This document shows positions 7,784-38,578 of a stretch of DNA of 64,000 bases, piece by piece. Source of the DNA: Nibricoccus aquaticus (GTDB taxonomy: Bacteria > Verrucomicrobiota > Verrucomicrobiia > Opitutales > Opitutaceae); the NCBI RefSeq assembly GCF_002310495.1, contig NZ_CP023344.1, positions 2,232,001-2,296,000 of the forward strand, written 5' to 3'. Position numbers and translations under genes: made by a program. The stretch's first letter is position 1. Every line of letters begins with the position of its first letter. The notes beneath the pieces are model-generated. The model made no database searches, had not been told where the DNA came from, and worked only from the letters and a program-made list of their open reading frames with translations.

Positions 7784-9535
7784 TTAAGAGTTGCTGGTGC
7801 TGCTGAAGGCGCTGGTGAGCTGGGCCGACATGTTCTTGATGGTGGCCTGGGCGTTTTCCATGGCGAGGAAGCCGGCTTCCATGCGGGCTTTTTCGGAGGC
7901 GAGCTGGCGTTCGATGTTGGCGATCTGCTGGTCGATGCTGGTGTTGCCCTTGGTGAGGGTTTCTTTTTGCGAGCCCAACATGCCGCCCGAGCCGGTGCCG
8001 GAGGTGCCGATGAGGCTGGTGTTAAAGGTTTCGAATTTGGCGGCGAAGCCGGTGCTGGCGGTCTTGAAGAAGGCTTCGACCTCGGAGGGTTTATCACGGA
8101 GGGCGGCCTCTAATTTGGAGGGATCCTTGATGGCGAGTTCGGAGGTGCCGGCGGTGAAATCGATGCCGAGATTTTCGAGGCGGGAGATGGTTCCGGAAAG
8201 GCCGCTGACGGCGGAGAAGGCGGTGGAGCGAAGGGTGGATTGCCAGGACTGGATCTCGCGGTTGTTGGCGAGGACGGCGGAGGTGACCTTGCCGTTGGCG
8301 GAGGTGATCTTGGTGGCGGTGTCGATGTAGGACTGGACCGCGTTGAACTTCTTAATGAATTCGTCGATCGCGCCCTTCATGCCGGTGGTGTTGGCATCGA
8401 CGGTGATGGTCTGGCTGGCCTCGGTGTTGGCGGTGAGGCTGAGGCCGGTGATGCCGTGGGAGGCGGCGGTAAATGTGTTGCTCGTGCTGGTGAGCGTGGG
8501 GCCGCCGTTGACGGTGAACTGGGCGTCGTCGCCGCGCGCGAGCGTGGAGGAGCCGGAGAGGCCGACGGCGTCGAGGAAGCCGCCGGCAGCTTCGCTGACG
8601 CTGAGGCCTAGGTCGCCCGTGCTCTTGTTGGTGAGAACGACGCGGTCGGCGGCGGCGTCGTACGTGGCGTTGACACCGGCCGAGGAGCTGCTGATGCGGC
8701 CGAGTACGGCGGAGAGGGAGTCGGTGTTGACGTTATAGGCGATGCTGACGCCGTTGACCGTGAAGGTGCCGTTGCCGGAGCCGTCAACCGCGGTAATGGA
8801 ATTGCGGAGACGGGAGCTGGCGAGCGGGGCGCTCTGGCTGGTGGCGCCGAGGGCGGTGCCGCTTTCGATGACGCCGGTGTTGTTGCCATTGGCGAGGCGG
8901 GCGACGGCGAGGAAGTTGGAGGTGTCGTTGGACGCGCCGAGGGTGATCGGGTTGCTGGCCGGGACGGAGGTGAGCGAAATTTTATCAGTGGTGGAGTCGT
9001 AGCTGCCGACGACTGCACCGCTGGTGGCGGTGGAGATTTTATCGAAGACGTCTTGAAGGGAGTCGGTGAGGGCGACGGTGATCTTGGCGCCGTTGACGGT
9101 GAAATCGCCGGCCGTGACAGCCGTGGCGGTGGGCATCGAGGCGATGGTGACGCCGGTGACGTTGTTGGTCGCGCTGAGGCCGAGGCCGATGTCGCCCGCG
9201 CCGGAGCGCTTGGTGGTCGTGGCGAGCTGGGTGACGTTAAAATTGTAGGCGCCGGTGGCGGTGCCGCTGGTGGCGCTGGTGGACCAGGAGGAGCCAGTCG
9301 TAGTGGAGGTGGCGCTACGACCGGTGAAGAGGCCTTCGGACTTGAGCGCGCGGGAGGCGGTCTGGAGCTCGTTGAGGCGGGTACCGAGGTTATCGAGGGC
9401 GGAGACCTTGTTGTTATTAGTGGTCTTCTCGGCCTGGAGACGGGTGATGGGCGCGCGGTTGAGCTCCATGACTTCATCCATGAAGGATTTCCAGTCGAAG
9501 CCTGAGATGAGTCCGGAGAGTTGTATGGAGGCCAT
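7784..9535 (-). CDS. fliD: Flagellar cap protein FliD (hook-associated protein 2)
   Basis: A 583-residue protein that forms the cap at the filament tip and helps flagellin polymerise. The N-terminus (QLSGLISGFDWKSFMDEVM, then RLQAEKTTNNNKVSALDNL) is the conserved FliD_N domain. The middle is a Thr/Ser/Gly-rich surface domain with several repeats of the type TVNG...I. The C-terminus carries the FliD_C coiled coil (FIKKFNAVQSYIDTATK, then SIDQQIANIERQLASEKARMEAGFLAMENAQATIKNMSAQL). The length is slightly above average. It heads the minus-strand flagellar group, is divergent from flagellin 1, and has a sigma-28-type promoter just upstream (9583-9609). Confidence 0.97.
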   Translation of the reverse strand: MASIQLSGLISGFDWKSFMDEVMELNRAPITRLQAEKTTNNNKVSALDNLGTRLNELQTASRALKSEGLFTGRSATSTTTGSSWSTSATSGTATGAYNFNVTQLATTTKRSGAGDIGLGLSATNNVTGVTIASMPTATAVTAGDFTVNGAKITVALTDSLQDVFDKISTATSGAVVGSYDSTTDKISLTSVPASNPITLGASNDTSNFLAVARLANGNNTGVIESGTALGATSQSAPLASSRLRNSITAVDGSGNGTFTVNGVSIAYNVNTDSLSAVLGRISSSSAGVNATYDAAADRVVLTNKSTGDLGLSVSEAAGGFLDAVGLSGSSTLARGDDAQFTVNGGPTLTSTSNTFTAASHGITGLSLTANTEASQTITVDANTTGMKGAIDEFIKKFNAVQSYIDTATKITSANGKVTSAVLANNREIQSWQSTLRSTAFSAVSGLSGTISRLENLGIDFTAGTSELAIKDPSKLEAALRDKPSEVEAFFKTASTGFAAKFETFNTSLIGTSGTGSGGMLGSQKETLTKGNTSIDQQIANIERQLASEKARMEAGFLAMENAQATIKNMSAQLTSAFSSTSNS

Positions 9536-9582
9536 GGCGAAAAGGGCTAGATGTGGAGAGACACTAAGGGCGCTATCGGGGG

Positions 9583-9609
9583 CATCGGTACAAAGAGGGC
9601 GTACTTAAG
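9583..9609 (-). promoter_or_regulatory. Candidate sigma-28-type promoter for fliD
   Basis: On the minus strand: TTAAGTAC (9609-9602), 11-bp spacer, ACCGATGC (9590-9583), compared with TAAAGTTT-N11-GCCGATAA. It lies 48 bp upstream of the fliD start. Confidence 0.6.
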
Positions 9610-9835
9610 CAGTGGTAAGAAAATCGTCACAGACTGCCGGGAGTCGGATCTCGAGTTGGGCGCTTTCTATTAGTGAAGCACGTGCGCGGACTGGAGACCG
9701 CTGGGAGCGGAAAGGGGGGATGTTTTCCGGTTTCTTTCGGGCGGAAAATGGCCGCGCCGGTCTTCCTCTGGAAGAAATTTTCAAACGGTTTTCAGAGGAG
9801 AAACCGGGGGCGCGGAGATTTTTTCTGTTTTCGCT

Positions 9836-9863
9836 TAAAGTTTGTTCAGCCCCGGTCCGTTTA
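9836..9863 (+). promoter_or_regulatory. Candidate sigma-28-type promoter for flagellin gene 1
   Basis: TAAAGTTT (9836-9843) is a perfect match to the extended FliA -35. It is followed after 12 bp by TCCGTTTA (9856-9863), a weaker -10 keeping CCG. A transcript from here would carry a leader of about 90 nt before ATG 9961. Together with the fliD promoter it explains the 425-bp divergent gap 9536-9960; nothing else is seen there. Confidence 0.6.
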
Positions 9864-9922
9864 ATTCCGCATCTGAGAGACTTCTCTTAGACGAGCGATC
9901 CGGCTCTCCCTCGGATCCGTCG

Positions 9923-9954
9923 CCACACGGACGTGGTAGTTAAAATCAAGGAAG
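9923..9954 (+). promoter_or_regulatory. Probable CsrA-binding leader of flagellin 1
   Basis: A hairpin with stem CCAC/GTGG (9923-9926, 9933-9936) shows ACGGAC in its loop. A second GGA lies in the Shine-Dalgarno AAGGAAG (9948-9954), 6 nt before the start codon. This two-site layout is the known CsrA repression pattern. Confidence 0.55.
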
Positions 9955-9960
9955 ATTCCC

Positions 9961-10794
9961 ATGTCAGTCGTAATCAACACCAACTATTCCGCCACGGTTG
10001 CCTCGAACAACTTGGCTATGTCCAATCAGAACCTGCAGAAGAGCCTCAATCGTCTCTCTAGCGGTTCCAAAATTGTTTCCCCGGCCGATGATGCCGGTGG
10101 TCTCGCCGTTTCCATGAAGTTGTCCGCCGCAGCCAAGCGCTCCGGTGCGGCCGCGATCAACATCGGCAACTCCGCCTCGTACCTGCAAACGCAGGACGGC
10201 GTGCTCAAAGTCACCGGCAAGGTGCTCGAGCGCATGAGCGAGCTGAAGACCCTCTATAACGATCCGACGAAGAATAGCACCGACCTCTCGAACTATGATT
10301 CGGAGTTCACGTCGCTCCAAGCACAGCTCACGTCACTGGTCGCTGAAAAATTTAACGGCGTCACTCTGTTCGGTTCCACCGGTTCGGCCGGTCTCACCGT
10401 CTCGGTCACTGAAGACGGCAGCACCACTTCCGCTGTTACCCTCGCTAACCGGGATCTTTCCAGCACCGCGACCGGTATCGGTGCCCTCACGGTCAGCTCG
10501 ATCACGAGCCTCGGTTCTTCCGGCCTCACCCTCACCGCGATCACGTCCGCGATCCAGAACGTCGCCACTTTCCGCGCCCAGAACGGCGCCGAGCAAAGCC
10601 GCCTCTCGTTCGCCGCCGAACTGCTCACGGTCAACAAGGCCAACCTCGAAGCCGCCAACAGCCGCATCATCGATGTGGACGTGGCCTCGGAGTCCACACA
10701 GCTCGCCCGCTGGAATACTCTCGTGCAGGCCGGTACTGCGATGCTCTCACAGGCCAATCAGAGCGCCCAGACCGCGCTCCGTCTCCTGCAGTAA
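9961..10794 (+). CDS. Flagellin 1
   Basis: A 277-residue filament subunit. The N-terminal D0/D1 helices (MSVVINTNYSATVASNNL, SLNRLSSGSKIVSPADDAGG) and the C-terminal D1/D0 helices (EAANSRIIDVDVASESTQ, ending QSAQTALRLLQ) are fully conserved. The central variable region is short (about residues 135-190) and very rich in Ser and Thr (GSTTSAVTLANRDLSSTATG), a plausible target for O-glycosylation by the GT41-type enzymes downstream. It is the first of three tandem flagellins and differs most from the other two. It is preceded by a sigma-28-type promoter and a CsrA-type leader. The filament is assembled outside the cell after export with FliS. Confidence 0.97.
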   Translation: MSVVINTNYSATVASNNLAMSNQNLQKSLNRLSSGSKIVSPADDAGGLAVSMKLSAAAKRSGAAAINIGNSASYLQTQDGVLKVTGKVLERMSELKTLYNDPTKNSTDLSNYDSEFTSLQAQLTSLVAEKFNGVTLFGSTGSAGLTVSVTEDGSTTSAVTLANRDLSSTATGIGALTVSSITSLGSSGLTLTAITSAIQNVATFRAQNGAEQSRLSFAAELLTVNKANLEAANSRIIDVDVASESTQLARWNTLVQAGTAMLSQANQSAQTALRLLQ

Positions 10795-10846
10795 TAAAAA
10801 GTCTTTAGTCCGCCACCGGTTCTCCCACGCCATCTCCGACAGGTCC

Positions 10847-10875
10847 GCTGCTTCTCGCGCCAAACGAGATCCAGC
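10847..10875 (+). promoter_or_regulatory. Hairpin H1 with CGCCAAA loop (spacer of flagellins 1 and 2)
   Basis: The stem TCTCG (10853-10857) / CGAGA (10865-10869) encloses the 7-nt loop CGCCAAA. It is extended by GCTG/CAGC (10847-10850, 10872-10875) across a 2x2 internal loop. No T-tract follows, so it is not a terminator. The loop is identical to those of H2, H3 and H4. Confidence 0.55.
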
Positions 10876-10921
10876 CATACGCCGGAGAGGGGGAACGCCA
10901 GGTGTTGAATTTGAAAAAGCG

Positions 10922-10949
10922 GGAGCGTCTCGCGCCAAACGAACGCTCC
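10922..10949 (+). promoter_or_regulatory. Hairpin H2 with CGCCAAA loop (spacer of flagellins 1 and 2)
   Basis: The stem GGAGCGT (10922-10928) / ACGCTCC (10943-10949), then one bulged C and TCG/CGA, closes the loop CGCCAAA (10933-10939). It lies 46 nt after H1. It is followed by a TCCGGAT-AC-ATCCGGA palindrome and then GTTCCTTACTACCACT, which recurs after H4. The rest of the 402-bp spacer 10795-11196 has another long hairpin (about 11019-11082) and no gene. Confidence 0.55.
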
Positions 10950-11156
10950 GTCCGCAAGTCAGAGATTCCGGATACATCCGGATCGTTCCTTACTACCACT
11001 TAGCAAGCTAGCAAATCAAAGCCCGGCTCCCTTCCGCGCGCGCATCTCTCTCGATGCGCGGCCACCGAAGGAGAGTCCGGGCTATCCCTTCGCAGGGTGA
11101 CACTTTTGGGGCATTCGCCTCGAACGGCTGGTCCTGTCCGGTTCTCTGGACCCGTG

Positions 11157-11188
11157 GCGACTACGGAAGTCGCACTCATCAAGGAAAG
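11157..11188 (+). promoter_or_regulatory. Probable CsrA-binding leader of flagellin 2
   Basis: A perfect 6-bp stem GCGACT/AGTCGC (11157-11162, 11168-11173) presents the loop ACGGA. The Shine-Dalgarno AAGGAAAG (11181-11188) supplies a second GGA 8 nt before ATG 11197. Confidence 0.6.
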
Positions 11189-11196
11189 ATAATCCC

Positions 11197-12030
11197 ATGT
11201 CAGTTGTTATTAACACTAACTATTCGGCGACCGTTGCCTCCAACAACCTCGCCTCGTCCAATGCCATGCTGCAACGCAGCCTTAACCGGTTGTCCAGCGG
11301 CTCGAAGATCGTCACCCCGTCCGATGACGCCGGCGGTCTCGCTGTTTCGATGAAGCTCTCCGCCGCGGCTAAACGCCAGGGCGCAGTCGCCTCGAACATC
11401 GGCAACTCTGTCTCGTATCTGCAAACGCAGGACGGCGCTCTGAAGGTCACCGCCAAGGTGCTCGACCGCATGAGCGAGCTGAAGACCCTCTACGCTGATC
11501 CGACCAAGAACAGCTCCGACCTGGCCAACTACGACTCCGAGTTCACCGCTCTCCAGAGCCAGCTCACGTCTCTCGTGGCCGAGAAATTCAACGGCGTCAC
11601 GCTGTTCGGCTCCTCCGGTGCCGCCGGCCTCACGGTCGCGGTCACGGAAGACGGCAGCACGACCTCCGCTGTCACCCTCGCCAACCGCGAGCTGTCGAGC
11701 ACCTCGTCCGGCATCGGCGCCCTCACGGCAACGACTGTCACGAGCCTCGGTTCGTCCGGTCTGACGCTGAGCGCCATCACCAGCGCGATTCAGAACGTTG
11801 CCACGATGCGCGCCCAGAACGGCGCTGAGCAAAGCCGCCTCGGTTTCGCGGGCGAGCTCCTCACGACCAACAAGGCCAACTTGGAAGCCGCCAACAGCCG
11901 CATCGTCGATGTGGATGTCGCGCAGGAATCCACCCAGCTCGCACGCTGGAACACCCTCGTGCAGGCCGGCACTGCGATGCTCTCGCAGGCCAATCAAAGC
12001 GCTCAGACGGCCCTCCGTCTGATCTCGTAA
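11197..12030 (+). CDS. Flagellin 2
   Basis: A 277-residue flagellin, nearly identical to flagellin 3 and close to flagellin 1. It has the same conserved N-terminal (VINTNYSATVASNNLASSN, LNRLSSGSKIVTPSDDAGG) and C-terminal blocks (SRIVDVDVAQESTQLARWN, ending TALRLIS). The central region keeps the TEDGSTTSAVTLANREL segment with many Ser/Thr. No sigma-28 promoter is obvious immediately upstream. It may be read through from flagellin 1 or use a promoter I cannot recognise near the conserved GTTCCTTACTACCACT block (around 10986). Tandem flagellins with different expression are common in bacteria with composite filaments. Confidence 0.97.
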   Translation: MSVVINTNYSATVASNNLASSNAMLQRSLNRLSSGSKIVTPSDDAGGLAVSMKLSAAAKRQGAVASNIGNSVSYLQTQDGALKVTAKVLDRMSELKTLYADPTKNSSDLANYDSEFTALQSQLTSLVAEKFNGVTLFGSSGAAGLTVAVTEDGSTTSAVTLANRELSSTSSGIGALTATTVTSLGSSGLTLSAITSAIQNVATMRAQNGAEQSRLGFAGELLTTNKANLEAANSRIVDVDVAQESTQLARWNTLVQAGTAMLSQANQSAQTALRLIS

Positions 12031-12047
12031 TCATCACCACTTTCCCG

Positions 12048-12084
12048 GTCGGCAGGTGGCTGCGCCAAACGGCCGCCAGCCGGC
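12048..12084 (+). promoter_or_regulatory. Hairpin H3 with CGCCAAA loop (spacer of flagellins 2 and 3)
   Basis: A long stem, GTCGGC (12048-12053) with GCCGGC (12079-12084) and GGTGGCTG (12055-12062) with CGGCCGCC (12070-12077), includes G-T pairs and an A-A mismatch. It closes the loop CGCCAAA (12063-12069). It starts 18 nt after the flagellin 2 stop codon. No T-tract follows. Confidence 0.55.
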
Positions 12085-12133
12085 AGGGTTATAGAAAGGT
12101 TTAGCAGAACACGCGGTTCATCGCTTCCGCGCC

Positions 12134-12150
12134 GCCTTCGCCAAAAAGGC
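12134..12150 (+). promoter_or_regulatory. Hairpin H4 with CGCCAAA loop (spacer of flagellins 2 and 3)
   Basis: GCCTT (12134-12138) / AAGGC (12146-12150) closes the loop CGCCAAA exactly. It lies 49 nt after H3, nearly the same as the H1-H2 distance. After it come a GTCCG/CGGAC palindrome and again GTTCCTTACTACCACT (around 12196). The rest of the spacer 12031-12335 has no gene. Confidence 0.55.
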
Positions 12151-12294
12151 ATCGCGCCCCGCGTCCACTCTGCTCGTCCGGCCCGTGTGCGGACAGTTCC
12201 TTACTACCACTCGTCAGTCAGCCCTAGCGGGCGAAAAAATCGGAGCATGATGTTCCGTCAGGTCTGGCCTTCACCGGTTCTAAGGAGGCTCGTG

Positions 12295-12327
12295 GCGACA
12301 ACGGAAGGTCGCACTCATCAAGGAAAG
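12295..12327 (+). promoter_or_regulatory. Probable CsrA-binding leader of flagellin 3
   Basis: The stem GCGAC/GTCGC (12295-12299, 12308-12312) has the loop AACGGAAG. The Shine-Dalgarno AAGGAAAG (12320-12327) gives a second GGA 8 nt before ATG 12336. The stem differs from leader 2 by an inserted base but the ACGGA loop is kept. Confidence 0.6.
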
Positions 12328-12335
12328 ATACCACT

Positions 12336-13160
12336 ATGTCAGTTGTCATTAATACAAACTACTCGGCCACGGTTGCTTCAAACAATCTGGCCTCCTCGAA
12401 CGCGATGTTGCAACGCAGCCTTAACCGGCTGTCGAGCGGCTCGAAGATCGTCACCCCGTCTGACGACGCCGGCGGTCTTGCTGTGTCCATGAAACTTTCT
12501 GCCGCGGCTAAACGCCAGGGCGCGGTTTCTTCGAACATCGGCAATTCCGTCTCGTACCTGCAGACGCAGGACGGCGCGCTCAAAGTCACTGGCAAGGTCC
12601 TCGATCGCATGAGCGAGCTGAAGACCCTCTACGCAGACCCGACCAAGAACAGCTCCGACCTGGCCAACTACGACTCCGAGTTCACCGCTCTCCAGAGCCA
12701 GCTCACGTCCCTCGTGGCCGAGAAGTTCAACGGCGTCACCCTGTTCGGTTCCGCCTCGCTCACAGTCGCAGTCACCGAAGACGGCAGCACGACTTCCGCT
12801 GTCAGCCTCGCCGGTCGCGACCTCGCTGGCACCAGCGCCGGTATCGGTGCTCTCACGTCATCGTCTGTCACGAGCCTCGGTTCGTCCGGTCTGACGCTGA
12901 GCGCCATCACCAGCGCGATTCAGAACGTCGCCACGATGCGCGCCCAGAACGGCGCTGAGCAGAGCCGCCTCGGTTTCGCGGGCGAGTTGCTCACGACCAA
13001 CAAAGCCAACCTCGAAGCCGCTAACAGCCGCATCATCGATGTGGACGTGGCGCAGGAATCCACCCAGCTCGCACGTTGGAACACCCTCGTGCAGGCCGGT
13101 ACCGCGATGCTTGCCCAGGCCAACGGCTCGGCGCAGACGGCTCTCCGTCTGATCTCGTAA
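12336..13160 (+). CDS. Flagellin 3
   Basis: A 274-residue flagellin. It is almost identical to flagellin 2 in the N- and C-terminal helices (same LNRLSSGSKIVTPSDDAGG and DVDVAQESTQLARW blocks) but three residues shorter at the start of the variable region (FGSASLTVAV against FGSSGAAGLTVAV). The C-terminus ends QTALRLIS. The changes in codon-third positions relative to flagellin 2 show an old duplication rather than a recent one. It closes the tandem array and is followed by a strong terminator. It is presumably chaperoned by FliS and a candidate substrate for the GT41-type enzymes immediately downstream. Confidence 0.97.
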   Translation: MSVVINTNYSATVASNNLASSNAMLQRSLNRLSSGSKIVTPSDDAGGLAVSMKLSAAAKRQGAVSSNIGNSVSYLQTQDGALKVTGKVLDRMSELKTLYADPTKNSSDLANYDSEFTALQSQLTSLVAEKFNGVTLFGSASLTVAVTEDGSTTSAVSLAGRDLAGTSAGIGALTSSSVTSLGSSGLTLSAITSAIQNVATMRAQNGAEQSRLGFAGELLTTNKANLEAANSRIIDVDVAQESTQLARWNTLVQAGTAMLAQANGSAQTALRLIS

Positions 13161-13208
13161 CGTTAGCGTCAGTGTTGATAAGCGTCTGATACGGATTCTT
13201 CCGTTAAG

Positions 13209-13245
13209 CCCCGTGCGCATTCGAGTGCGCACGGGGTTCTTTTTT
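13209..13245 (+). terminator. Strong Rho-independent terminator of the flagellin array
   Basis: A perfect 11-bp stem CCCCGTGCGCA/TGCGCACGGGG (13209-13219, 13226-13236) with loop TTCGAG is followed by TTCTTTTTT. The convergent glycosyltransferase gene ends just beyond. Confidence 0.92.
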
Positions 13246-13272
13246 ATGAGGCATGGAGCAACGCTCCACGAG

Positions 13273-14421
13273 CTACGCCACCCGCTCGTACAACGCCGCC
13301 AGCTCCGCCGGTCCGAACGCCTTGCCCTCTTGCTTGAGCGCGAGCGCCGCCCGCAACAACTGCACGCCCCGCGCAGGCTTCCCCCGGTCCTTCCAATACG
13401 CGCCGAGAAAAAGCAGCGCGTCGCATTTCAACTCCGTCACATCGTAAGGCGGAATCTGCGGCGCCGCCACGCAGCCCAGCACGCGTTCGTACCAGCCGCG
13501 CGCCTCGTCGGCCCGCCCGAGCTTCGCCTCGGCTTCCGCGCGCAACGCCATCAGCTCCGGGTGCCAGCCCGCATCAAATTCCACCGGCATTTCCGCCAAT
13601 GCTTCGTCGGCCCGCCCGAGCGCGAGTAGACAGGTGATCACGCGCACGTGGGCGCCGCGCGCGACCTCGTCTCCATCCGGCGCGCGGCGCGCGGCCTGAA
13701 GAGCGAACCGATAAATGGTGAGCGCCTCCTCATGCTCGCCGAGATCGAGATGACAGCCGCCGAGCAGGAAATAAGTCATCGGCGCGAGATCACCGCCACC
13801 GGCGATCTGCGTCTGAAAAATCTCCCGGTTGCGAAGCTGCTTCGCCCGGTTGCGCTCCCGGTTCGCGTAGCCGGTGTGAAGGAATTTCACCGTCAAGGTA
13901 AGCACGGGAACGCCTGCACGGCTGAGACTGGTCATAACCTGCTCGTGGATCGGCCACTCGTAGCGCACGTCAGCCCGGTTGGGGAAAACGCGCGTGATGT
14001 GCGCGAGCATTCCGGGCCGGCCGTCGGCCGACAGGTTTTGCAGCACCAGCTGAAACGCCACCGTGGCTCGGCCGTCTGCGTCCGTGTGCTGCGCGATGAG
14101 CTGACGCAGCGCAGCGCCGTCCTCGGGAAGCAAATACTCGTCCGCGTCCAGCACCAGAATCCACGCGCCCGTTGCCGCGGCGAGCGACTGGTTGCGCGCC
14201 CGGCTGAAATCATTTTCCCAACTGGATTGAATGAGCTGCGCACCGTGCTCACGCGCGATCGCCTGCGTGCCGTCGGTCGATCCCGTGTCCACGACGACGA
14301 TCTCGTTGACGACGTCCTTCACCGACGCGAGGCAGCGGGCGAGCGTCTCGCGCTCGTTCTTCACGATCATGCACAAACTCAGGAGCGGGCGGGCGGCGAA
14401 CGTGGGGGCGGGCGACGGCAT
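13273..14421 (-). CDS. Family 2 glycosyltransferase with C-terminal TPR-like helices
   Basis: A 382-residue protein; the start is set at ATG 14421 because the GT2 domain begins right after it, although the frame is open further upstream. Residues ~13-130 are a GT-A domain: LSLCMIVKNERETLARCL, VVDTGSTDGTQAIA and the metal-binding DADEY, with ENDFSRARNQSL between. The second half (~210-370) is helical with TPR-like repeats (LGEHEEALTIYRFAL, LGRADEALAEMPVEF, LGRADEARGWYERVL). This SunS-like architecture is seen in protein and peptide glycosyltransferases. It is divergent from the GT41-type gene (102-bp gap) and converges on the flagellin array, so transfer or elongation of sugar on flagellin is a reasonable inference. 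Confidence 0.9.
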   Translation of the reverse strand: MPSPAPTFAARPLLSLCMIVKNERETLARCLASVKDVVNEIVVVDTGSTDGTQAIAREHGAQLIQSSWENDFSRARNQSLAAATGAWILVLDADEYLLPEDGAALRQLIAQHTDADGRATVAFQLVLQNLSADGRPGMLAHITRVFPNRADVRYEWPIHEQVMTSLSRAGVPVLTLTVKFLHTGYANRERNRAKQLRNREIFQTQIAGGGDLAPMTYFLLGGCHLDLGEHEEALTIYRFALQAARRAPDGDEVARGAHVRVITCLLALGRADEALAEMPVEFDAGWHPELMALRAEAEAKLGRADEARGWYERVLGCVAAPQIPPYDVTELKCDALLFLGAYWKDRGKPARGVQLLRAALALKQEGKAFGPAELAALYERVA

Positions 14422-35958: not shown

Positions 35959-36855
35959 ATGCGCATCGCCACCAACACCGCCTCCGAGGCTGTCCTCGCC
36001 CAGCTCACCAAGCTCAGCCAGCGCCAGTCCATGCTCCAGACCCAGGCCGCCACCGGCCAGCGCATCTTCCAGCCCGAGGACGACCCCGCCGCCGTCGGCC
36101 GTATCCTCGGCCTTGAGACGGAGCGCCGCCAGATCACGCAGTTCCAGAGCAACGCCACCCGCGCCCTCGAAGTCTCCCAGTCCTCCTACGCCGGCATCAA
36201 CGAGATGAAAAAAATCTCCGACCGCGCCGGCGAGCTCGTCACCCTCGGTGCTGGCGCCTCCAGCCCCGACGCCTTCAAAGCCTACGCCAAGGAGGTCAAC
36301 CAGCTCATCGAGCAGGCCGTGCAGCTCGGAAACACCAAGTTCCGCAACGACTACCTCTTCGCCGGTACCGCCGTCACCACCCAGCCCTACGACGACACCA
36401 ACCGCGACGCCAACGGCAACCTCCTCGCCGTCACCTATGCCGGCAACACCTCCCAAGGCACCGTCCAGCTCTCCGAATACTCCAGCATCGCCCCCGGCAC
36501 CACCAGCGCCACCAACACCGGCATGGGCGGCTTCATCAATAACCTCATCGCCCTGCGCGACGCCCTCAATACCGGCAGCAGCGCCACCGTCTCCGCCGCA
36601 CAACCCGCTCTCGAAACCTCCGAAAACCTCCTCGTCAACGCCCTCAGCGAACACGGCGCCATCGAGCTTCGCATCGAGGTGAACAAAAAACAGCAGGAAA
36701 CCCGCGCGCAAAATATCGAGACCCTCGTCTCTCAAGACGCCGACTCCGACCTGGCCACCACCGTTGTCCGCCTCAGCCAGACCGCCACCGCGTACGAAGC
36801 CGCGCTTTCCTCCGCCACGAAAATCCTCCAAATGTCGCTCCTCGACTACATCTGA
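35959..36855 (+). CDS. flgL: Hook-associated protein 3, FlgL
   Basis: A 298-residue flagellin-like junction protein. N-terminus: RIATNTASEAVLAQLTKLSQRQSMLQTQAATGQRI, then EDDPAAVGRILGLETERRQ; this differs from the flagellins in having the QxxxATGQRI block. The C-terminus ATTVVRLSQTATAYEAALSSATKILQMSLLDYI is the FlgL D0 helix. The central beta domain includes FRNDYLFAGTAVTTQPYD (FlgL motif NGxYLFxG). It caps the hook before the first flagellin. The next gene is fliW, 68 bp later. Confidence 0.96.
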   Translation: MRIATNTASEAVLAQLTKLSQRQSMLQTQAATGQRIFQPEDDPAAVGRILGLETERRQITQFQSNATRALEVSQSSYAGINEMKKISDRAGELVTLGAGASSPDAFKAYAKEVNQLIEQAVQLGNTKFRNDYLFAGTAVTTQPYDDTNRDANGNLLAVTYAGNTSQGTVQLSEYSSIAPGTTSATNTGMGGFINNLIALRDALNTGSSATVSAAQPALETSENLLVNALSEHGAIELRIEVNKKQQETRAQNIETLVSQDADSDLATTVVRLSQTATAYEAALSSATKILQMSLLDYI

Positions 36856-36923: not shown

Positions 36924-37379
36924 ATGAAAGTCAGTCCAGACATCTACCCGAGCGACCTCGACGCCTCCACCACGCTCAACCTCAGCCTCCCCGAAGGCCT
37001 CGTCGGCTTCGAAGACTATAAAACCTTCGAACTGCTCAGCGACCCCGACCAGTTCCCCTTCGTCTGGATGCGCCTGAAAGGCCCCGACACTCTCGACTTC
37101 GTCGTCATCGAACCCGGCGGCATCATCCCCGATTACGAACTGGAGCTCTTCGATGAAGACGCCACCCAGCTCGGCCTCGCCACTCCGGCCGATGCGCTTG
37201 TGCTCAACATCGTCACCGTCCGCCACGGCGCCAACGCCACCGCCACGGTCAACCTCGCCGGCCCCGTCGTCGTCAACCGCCGCACCGGGCTCGCCCGCCA
37301 GTGCATCCTTGCCAACTACGCCCGCTACAGCGCTCATCACCCGCTCGTCGCGAACCAGACCGCCGAAACTCAAAACTAA
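36924..37379 (+). CDS. fliW: Flagellar assembly factor FliW
   Basis: A 151-residue protein. Conserved blocks: [43 protein letters not shown] and [39 protein letters not shown], all typical of FliW. In Bacillus and Campylobacter, FliW binds free flagellin or CsrA; when flagellin is exported FliW is released and sequesters CsrA, allowing flagellin translation. The neighbours csrA and a flagellin gene, and the CsrA-type leaders at 9923, 11157 and 12295, support the same feedback loop here. It is 5 bp from csrA. Confidence 0.97.
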
Positions 37380-37384
37380 CCGCC

Positions 37385-37687
37385 ATGCTCGTCCTCACAC
37401 GCAGAGTTAACGAGTCGATCGTCATCGGCGGGAACATTGAAATCAAAATCACCCGCATCGACGGCGACCTCGTCAAAATCGGCATCGACGCCCCGCGCGA
37501 AGTGCAGATTTTCCGCAAAGAAGTCATGACCGAGATCGCCGCGACCAATCAGGCCGCCGCTCTCAAATCCGGCTCCGCACTCCCTGCCGGCCTCCCCAAA
37601 TTCGCCCGCCAGCAAAGACCCGCCGCGCAGGCTCCTGCCGCCCCCGTACCCGCGCCGGTCGTACAGACCCCGCCTCCCTCCGTCTGA
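37385..37687 (+). CDS. csrA: Carbon storage/translation regulator CsrA
   Basis: A 100-residue RNA-binding protein. The start at ATG 37385 gives the canonical first residues [21 protein letters not shown]. The first ~60 residues contain the whole CsrA fold, including the RNA-contact region [12 protein letters not shown] with its essential Arg. The extra ~40-residue Ala/Pro tail is longer than in most CsrA proteins (about 61-70 residues) and probably disordered. It represses translation by binding ANGGA motifs, often in hairpin loops near the ribosome-binding site. The likely targets in this window are the three flagellin leaders. Confidence 0.96.
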
Positions 37688-37699
37688 TTTCTCCGCACG

Positions 37700-38578
37700 A
37701 TGAGCGCCACACCGATCAACACCCAGACGCTTCAAGACGCGCGCAACATCAGCCGCATGAACACGCTGCTGGACCGCTCCATCGCGCGCCTCAGCTCCGG
37801 CTCCCGCATGGTCGCCGCCTCCGACGATCCCGCCGGCTCCGCGCTCGCTGAAAAACTCTCCGCGCAAAACCTCCGCGTCGGCGCCGCCTCCACCAACGTC
37901 CAGAACGCCGTCTCCTTCACCCAGTCCGTCGACGGCTTCCTCGACGGCATGGGCGACCTCCTCGGCCGCATGTCCGAGCTCGCGATTCTTGCGCGCGATC
38001 CGCTGAAAAACGCGGGCGACCTCGCGCTCTACCAGCAAGAGTTCGAGCAGCTACAGACTCAGATCCGCAACACCATCGGCGGTAACACGACCGACATCGG
38101 CGGCACCTACAATATCACCAAACCCTTCGGCACGTTTAACGGCCGCACCCTCTTCGGCGCCAATCCCGCCGGCACCGTCATCGCCACCGGCCAGGCCTCC
38201 ACGCAGCGTCTCACCATTCCGGAGACAAATCTCCGCGACGGCGCCATGCTCTCGATGTTTCAGCAAGACGCCGCCGGTGTCTTCACGATGAGCGTCACCG
38301 ACGCCGCCGCGATCGGTAACATCAATTCAGCCATCGGCGAAATCGCCGACGAACGCTCCACCCTCGGCGCAGTCGGCGGCCGCCTGGAACTGGTCGCCAG
38401 CGCGCTCGCCTCCGAAGGTGAAAGCCTCACCTCGACCATCTCCAAGATCAGCGACATCGATGTCGCCACCGAGTCCACCCGCATGGCGAAGTATGATCTG
38501 CTCACCAAGAGCGGCACCGCCATGCTCACGCAGGCTAACCAGTCCACGCGCTCCGTCCTCCGCCTTCTCCAAGGCTGA
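37700..38578 (+). CDS. Fourth, divergent flagellin in the csrA operon
   Basis: A 292-residue flagellin family member. The N-terminal D0/D1 block (INTQTLQDARNISRMNTLLDRSIARLSSGSRMVAASDDPAGS) and the C-terminal block (ISDIDVATESTRMAKYDLLTKSGTAMLTQANQSTRSVLRLLQ) are conserved, but residues between differ strongly from flagellins 1-3. The middle (NTTDIGGTYNITKPFGTFNGRTLFG) is typical of flagellins with an FGxxNGRTLF segment. Because it sits 12 bp downstream of csrA in the hook and junction operon, it may be made early, for instance as the filament base, while flagellins 1-3 are made late. It has no CsrA-type hairpin before its start. Confidence 0.95.
   Translation: MSATPINTQTLQDARNISRMNTLLDRSIARLSSGSRMVAASDDPAGSALAEKLSAQNLRVGAASTNVQNAVSFTQSVDGFLDGMGDLLGRMSELAILARDPLKNAGDLALYQQEFEQLQTQIRNTIGGNTTDIGGTYNITKPFGTFNGRTLFGANPAGTVIATGQASTQRLTIPETNLRDGAMLSMFQQDAAGVFTMSVTDAAAIGNINSAIGEIADERSTLGAVGGRLELVASALASEGESLTSTISKISDIDVATESTRMAKYDLLTKSGTAMLTQANQSTRSVLRLLQG

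Follow-up and report, generated by a model that had tools for sequence, protein, structure and literature searches.

Paired hairpins with a constant CGCCAAA loop in the spacers between tandem flagellin genes of Nibricoccus aquaticus and a second genus of its family

Introduction

Three flagellin genes lie in tandem on the plus strand of the window, the 64,000-nucleotide stretch of the Nibricoccus aquaticus genome analyzed here (flagellin 1, 9961-10794; flagellin 2, 11197-12030; flagellin 3, 12336-13160; each with the Pfam domains Flagellin_N and Flagellin_C), and the spacers that separate them measure 402 and 305 nt. An earlier note on this DNA had described four hairpins in these spacers, each closing the same seven-nucleotide loop, CGCCAAA, with a different stem, and had read the combination of loop conservation and stem change as a selected RNA structure. 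The locus thereby raises the question of whether the shared loop exceeds what chance would produce, how far such hairpins extend among related flagellin operons, and what an element of this form might do between flagellin genes.

Results

All four hairpins were confirmed on the plus strand, two in each spacer. H1 (10847-10875) combines a TCTCG/CGAGA stem with an outer stem of GCTG/CAGC and has its loop from 10858, and H2 (10922-10949) forms ten pairs with one bulged C around a loop that starts at 10933. In the second spacer, H3 (12048-12084; loop from 12063) is built of 14 pairs interrupted by an A/A mismatch, and H4 (12129-12157; loop from 12139) consists of a GCCTT/AAGGC core at 12134-12150 extended by an outer GCGC stem. 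H1 and H2 have 15 nt in common around the loop. Folding of the whole spacers leaves each loop base of H1-H4 unpaired with a probability of at least 0.95. The remainder of the earlier description is likewise borne out, as the members of the two pairs are separated by 46 and 49 nt and each pair is followed by a palindrome (TCCGGATACATCCGGA at 10967-10982 in the first spacer, GTCCGGCCCGTGTGCGGAC at 12176-12194 in the second) and then by an identical 16-mer, GTTCCTTACTACCACT, at 10985-11000 and 12196-12211 (all on the plus strand). The first copy of this 16-mer starts with GTTCCTT, which corresponds to a boxA-like motif of relatives, GTTCYTT. The view that the hairpins carry no T-tract and are not terminators also held, with a plus-strand terminator scan of 9500-13300 returning sites only at 9708 and 13207.

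The CGCCAAA heptamer itself has an ordinary frequency in the window (20 sites against 15.6 expected), and four of its five plus-strand copies fall inside the two spacers, which total 707 nt. Chance was assessed with 1000 dinucleotide shuffles of these two spacers and of the corresponding spacer of a relative, Opitutaceae bacterium EW11, by counting hairpins that share one exact 7-nt loop. With stems of at least five pairs, six hairpins with one loop are observed, while the maximum in the shuffles was one (981 shuffles) or two (19 of 1000); with stems of at least six pairs, four are observed as opposed to one (994) or two (6). The six hairpins account for every CGCCAAA copy in the three spacers from the two genera. 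The sharing of a loop among these hairpins is far above chance expectation.

The flagellin spacer of EW11, which belongs to a second genus, likewise holds a CGCCAAA hairpin pair. Its two stems differ from those of the window, one having eight pairs with a G/A closing mismatch and the other ten pairs. The EW11 loops start 40 and 109 nt past the stop codon. The layout resembles that of the window: the two loops of a pair begin 75 and 76 nt apart in the window's spacers and 69 nt apart in EW11, a TCCTT motif and ACCACT follow, and all six loops lie on the sense strand. In the second EW11 hairpin the first loop base is unpaired at a probability of only 0.26, since the fold can pair that base. When the six hairpins are aligned, two-sided changes occur in 10 of 10 stem pairs, the covariation score reaches 0.83 (0.33 after shuffling, 0.04-0.21 after sliding) and 80% of the cells pair, as compared to 52.7% in shuffled and at most 45% in slid alignments. 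RNAalifold independently recovers eight pairs, all with two-sided changes. In two of the alignments of this analysis (A1, centred on the loop, and A3, chosen by the loop) the constancy of the loop is a matter of construction, but the pairing counts are not; whole-spacer alignments by MAFFT left the hairpins unaligned and were excluded from the counts. The second genus, the two-sided changes, the covariation and the strand together support the earlier proposal that selection has kept an RNA structure, preserving its loop while the stems changed.

We then measured the reach of the motif. A covariance model of the six hairpins, run on the window's 4.73-Mb single-contig genome, gives only the four flagellin-spacer sites above 25 bits among the best 150 of 1806 first-look candidates, the next match in that set scoring 21.1 bits and lying inside a long open frame. 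The expectation that the loop is not scattered elsewhere thus stood as far as hairpins are concerned, with no comparable CGCCAAA hairpin found elsewhere in the genome among those best 150 of 1806 candidates. The same genome encodes a separate, longer flagellin (G000:C1:437960-439048, locus L102, a 375-codon frame), which has no CGCCAAA hairpin above 25 bits.

Searches of relatives gave a mixed answer. A protein search returned 63 loci, among which CGCCAAA hairpins occupy a flagellin spacer only at that of EW11; four further loci of the 63 present CGCCAAA on a stem of four to five pairs away from the flagellin spacer. In 200 family genomes, with 36 candidates scored per genome, the covariance model matched 39 at E<=0.1, including the window's genome and EW11. 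Among 19 new loci from this search (L131-L149), a flagellin stands only at that of EW11 (L131), and the others were rejected as flagellin elements; a third match in EW11 lies inside a long open frame with no flagellin within 3.1 kb around it. A pattern of two loops plus TCCTT occurred in 51 of 252 family genomes, again including the window's and EW11, and a reversed control pattern in 28; at the 20 loci examined from this search, a flagellin was found only at EW11's (L166).

For a wider comparison we assembled 115 spacers between neighboring flagellin genes, together with the leaders of 101 first genes and the stretches behind 101 last genes. Seventeen spacers from more distant loci of the same family (among L033-L056; genera g8, g12, g13 and g19) were set aside after many had been seen to be long or to have their own promoter, leaving 98 internal spacers. 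These include several per genome (12 from G176, 7 from G118 and 5 from G261), and counts over them ignore kinship. A CGCCAAA hairpin is present in 3 of the 98 internal spacers and in none of 80 sequences behind last genes. The pair is thus known, among the family genomes examined, from three spacers in two genera, and the expectation that orthologous flagellin spacers would keep it is borne out in the second genus, EW11, but contradicted by its absence from 95 of the 98 related spacers. From the sequence comparisons, the CGCCAAA hairpins are a real but narrow RNA structure.

The earlier statement that no named RNA motif takes this form agrees with the Rfam results, in which no family reached its cut-off: Rfam 15 gave two matches at E<=5 for positions 9500-13300 of the window, one scoring 16 bits (cut-off 42) and the other 15.2 bits (cut-off 49), and no match at the gathering threshold in 16 related loci. 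No description of such hairpins was found in the literature on flagellin spacer hairpins or Opitutaceae flagellin, as far as this is represented in partial, mostly open-access coverage. We regard it as an undescribed intercistronic cis-acting RNA motif.

The arrangement of promoters indicates how the spacers are likely to be expressed. A sigma-28-like promoter precedes flagellin 1 (9836-9863, plus strand; TAAAGTTT-N12-TCCGTTTA, 13 of 16 consensus bases) and an intrinsic-terminator-like site follows flagellin 3 (13207-13245, plus strand), standing in the place of CGCCAAA hairpins behind the last gene. In the two spacers of the window, the best sigma-28 match is 9/16 and no sigma-70-like site was found. 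By a criterion of at least 11 of 16 consensus bases within the last 250 nt, 53 of the 76 leaders of first genes contain a sigma-28 match, where shuffles average 2.75; among the 98 internal spacers the number is 2 (shuffles average 1.45), and among the 17 excluded spacers it is 7. Raising the threshold to at least 12/16 still leaves two of the 98 internal spacers against a shuffle mean of 0.15, one each at L185 and L196, and these two spacers probably have a promoter of their own. Given so few internal sigma-28 matches, most spacers appear to be read through, and they are probably transcribed, untranslated stretches of one long mRNA.

A second class of hairpin lies at the downstream end of the spacers. 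Each of the three flagellins is preceded by a plus-strand hairpin with an ACGGA loop (9922-9937, 11157-11173 and 12295-12312), a probable CsrA site. Of the 98 internal spacers, 96 have a CGGA-loop hairpin within 75 nt upstream of the start codon, against 8 in a single shuffle, and so do 74 of the 76 leaders. These leader hairpins are conserved much more widely than the CGCCAAA hairpins. The window also encodes FliW (36924-37376) and, beside it, CsrA (37385-37684). This gene pair adjoins a FlgL-like Flagellin_N gene (35959-36852) and a fourth flagellin (37700-38575). Control of flagellin by CsrA and FliW, in which an RNA-binding protein reads GGA motifs post-transcriptionally, is a known mechanism, and on this analogy the leader hairpins are very probably CsrA sites. 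The likeness to the CsrA-FliW system, namely the two encoded proteins and a GGA-loop hairpin before each of the three flagellin starts, does not extend to the CGCCAAA loops, which contain no GGA and sit downstream of the preceding gene rather than at a ribosome-binding site; they were rejected as CsrA/RsmA sites because of the missing GGA. The CsrA leader hairpins are an element separate from the CGCCAAA hairpins.

Further elements populate the spacers. Upstream of flagellin 2 is a hairpin, TTTGGGGC-N4-GCCTCGAA, at 11105-11124, and the second spacer has a possible counterpart, CGGAGC/GTTCCG, at 12241-12257 (both plus strand). The hairpin at 11105-11124 is a palindrome starting with TTTG, a type seen in 54 of the 98 related spacers against 3 in a single shuffle; it has about eight pairs and a 4-6-nt loop, lies upstream of the CsrA hairpin and differs in its stem among genera. 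A mid-spacer stretch with ACCACT or a near form followed by CCCTTCGCAGGGTGACA was recognized by eye in L103, L107, L183, L203 and L010 and at 11086-11102 of the window. In the flagellin arrays L215, L216 and L221 (genomes G176 and G261), several spacers hold a repeated long REP-like hairpin, GTAGCGCAGGCTTCCAGCCTGC.

Constant loops other than CGCCAAA also appear after internal stop codons. Compared with their own shuffles, the regions from +11 to +75 past internal stops fold more stably (97 spacers, mean z -2.3, 50 below -2). In loop groups that were defined after the sequences had been viewed, CTAGTC is found in 16 of 98 internal spacers versus 1 of 80 sequences behind last genes, and AGTGATTG in 6 of 98 versus none of 80. 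The CTAGTCC group shows two-sided changes in 9 of 12 pairs and a covariation of 0.41, compared with 0.18 when shuffled. A looser loop, [CT]AGT[CT], occurs in 24 of 98 internal spacers and, being frequent behind last genes too, in 10 of 80 of those sequences. Counted by sequence and irrespective of stem, the named loops are absent from 54 of the 98 spacers. In genus g7, six genomes (L103, L178, L180, L182, L183 and L184) have a post-stop loop GTCGTT[CA] on differing stems, three of them with at least five pairs; L179 and L181, of the same genus and with short spacers, are without it. At a comparable position, the relative G019 carries a CTCCA(AA) hairpin, and the relative L107 has a CTCCAAA loop whose last two A are paired in the fold. 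A wider pattern of clade-specific constant loops at the post-stop place is partly supported by these observations.

Discussion

We are confident that the CGCCAAA hairpins are a selected RNA element whose loop is read. A loop-reading factor is indicated by the fixed loop on free stems, the restriction to the sense strand, the absence behind last genes and the presence of two sites per spacer. To our knowledge, a fixed loop on changing stems is the mark of a specific reader, and we know of none for CGCCAAA. In the explanation that we favor, the hairpins would act in cis on a single sigma-28-dependent, polycistronic flagellin mRNA, and a trans-acting factor, most likely a protein, would read the exposed loop and dock on both hairpins of a spacer. 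The mRNA would be cut within the spacer, the first hairpin would serve as marker and shield for the 3' end of the flagellin cistron that precedes it, and each cistron would end up as a stable message headed by a CsrA-controlled leader of its own. Taken as a whole (cis element, loop-reading factor and 3'-end protection of the upstream cistron), this statement is tentative and we place it somewhat below an even chance; the protection of the 3' end would be its weaker part. Protection is nonetheless ranked first, because in each of the three spacers the first hairpin follows soon after the stop codon, its loop starting 33-64 nt downstream, and because it is found behind none of the 80 last genes. 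Against it, a plain stabilizing hairpin needs no fixed loop, and the second hairpin, with 62-69 nt between the loops, would be superfluous.

Two known systems help to place this proposal. In alphaproteobacteria FlbT is the known flagellin-mRNA factor, which binds flagellin mRNA and acts on the 5' leader. The analogy lies in mRNA control that is specific for flagellin, but FlbT works on the 5' leader and its gene was found in none of the four genomes searched, which gave no match under conditions where a control match was obtained in Caulobacter. The REP sequence between malE and malF is an intercistronic stabilizing stem-loop of a polycistronic mRNA, and there, too, hairpins without a T-tract between cistrons shield the upstream message at its 3' end. 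REP elements, however, are multicopy and have conserved stems, while the present hairpins number four copies above 25 bits and keep the loop as their stems change.

The alternatives differ chiefly in what they make of the loop and of the spacer around it. Antitermination of the nut or rrn type, ranked second on account of the boxA-like motif, is possible but doubtful: boxB-like hairpins together with a boxA-like GTTCYTT would recruit Nus factors and let the polymerase cross a 300-400-nt untranslated spacer without Rho termination. As in rrn and lambda nut sites, where in rrn leaders boxB precedes boxA, a hairpin is here combined with a boxA-like GTTCYTT in a long untranslated stretch. GTTC[CT]TT is concentrated in internal spacers (31 of 98, shuffle mean 3.4 and maximum 8) as compared with leaders (1 of 76) and sequences behind last genes (4 of 80), with 27 of the 31 having a copy 135-190 nt upstream of the start codon, and GTTCTTTGA occurs in 13 of the 98 (shuffle mean 0.04) across eight genera; moreover, most spacers are long and have no promoter match. 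The consensus for boxA is GYTCTTTAANA in gammaproteobacteria according to PMC5725501, which also describes a boxA that works elsewhere than in rRNA, namely in the leader of suhB, and rrn leaders carry boxB, boxA and boxC according to PMC10250234. Measured against the ten fixed positions of this gammaproteobacterial consensus, which may not be the host's, the relatives' form GTTCTTTGACA differs at one and the window's copy at two, but the EW11 copy GATCCTTCGAT differs at five, and the copies of the window, EW11 and the relatives all fall short of a full match to it. GTTCYTT is also absent from 67 of the 98 spacers, and a boxA alone leaves the conserved hairpin loop unexplained. Judged by sequence, the locus further departs from rrn and lambda nut sites in having two hairpins with 7-nt loops and a boxA-like motif that matches imperfectly in the window and badly in EW11. 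A search of the window's genome for rRNA genes gave no match here. Two genomic GTTCTTTGANA sites were considered as rrn leaders and rejected, both lying inside long open frames, and a reading of GTTCTTTGA as a -35 box was dropped after inspection of a few copies by eye revealed no -10 at the right distance.

If a small RNA instead docks on the loop by pairing with CGCCAAA, an exposed, fixed and unpaired stretch of 7 nt, offered twice per spacer, would make a good seed. We consider this improbable. No second genomic place with the complementary loop TTTGGCG in a comparable hairpin was found among the best 150 of 1804 candidates, four other matches to the reverse-complement model are the antisense of weak CGCCAAA sites, and TTTGGC and TTGGCG are absent from the window's operon and from the EW11 stretch; TTTGG has a single occurrence in the window's operon. 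Pairing of the loops with each other, raised in the earlier note, is disfavored by the lack of TTTGGC and TTGGCG in the operon and of a complementary-loop hairpin among the best 150 of 1804 candidates in the genome. A kissing partner elsewhere was likewise rejected, since within that best 150 of 1804 the reverse-complement model recovers only the antisense of known sites. Still less probable is action of the hairpins as DNA (in recombination, as mobile-element ends or in a REP-like role) or an origin as remnants of a recent duplication. The 15 nt shared by H1 and H2 and the location between similar genes able to recombine would suit this, but the stems are different in H3, H4 and the two EW11 hairpins, the genome has only four copies above 25 bits (best 150 of 1806 candidates), the sense strand is always used and the same layout recurs in another genus. 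REP-type repeats in particular were discarded, as the four copies above 25 bits all lie in flagellin spacers (best 150 of 1806 candidates) and their stems differ. Least credible of all is a role as transcription terminators or attenuators; GC-rich stems past a stop codon would fit one, but the plus-strand scan finds no T-tract at H1-H4, the spacers offer no sigma-28-like match above 9/16 and no sigma-70-like site for a restart, and the terminator-like site at 13207 is behind the third gene.

Returning to the loop-reading explanation, the other constant loops permit a broader form of it that we regard as rather unlikely. A single hairpin position would be served by a dedicated RNA-binding reader that switches specificity among clades (CGCCAAA, CTAGTCC, AGTGATTG and GTCGTTM) and sets the ratio of the tandem flagellins. 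Even more speculatively, the hairpins could mimic a tRNA anticodon arm, with AAA at the end of a seven-nucleotide loop and at least five pairs in the stem, and be read by a tRNA-modifying enzyme; the CTCCAAA loop of L107 has the sequence of the tRNA-Trp anticodon loop, although its last two A are paired there. Such a code of loops, if true, would amount to a natural set of orthogonal hairpin-protein pairs.

In Verrucomicrobiota, where we found almost no work on the control of flagellar RNA, the hairpins provide a concrete route to an RNA-binding factor, and the boxA-like motif offers a way to test for a connection with the machinery of ribosomal antitermination. More generally, they point to the possibility that a bacterium with tandem flagellins may maintain transcription, or the stability of its messages, across long untranslated spacers.
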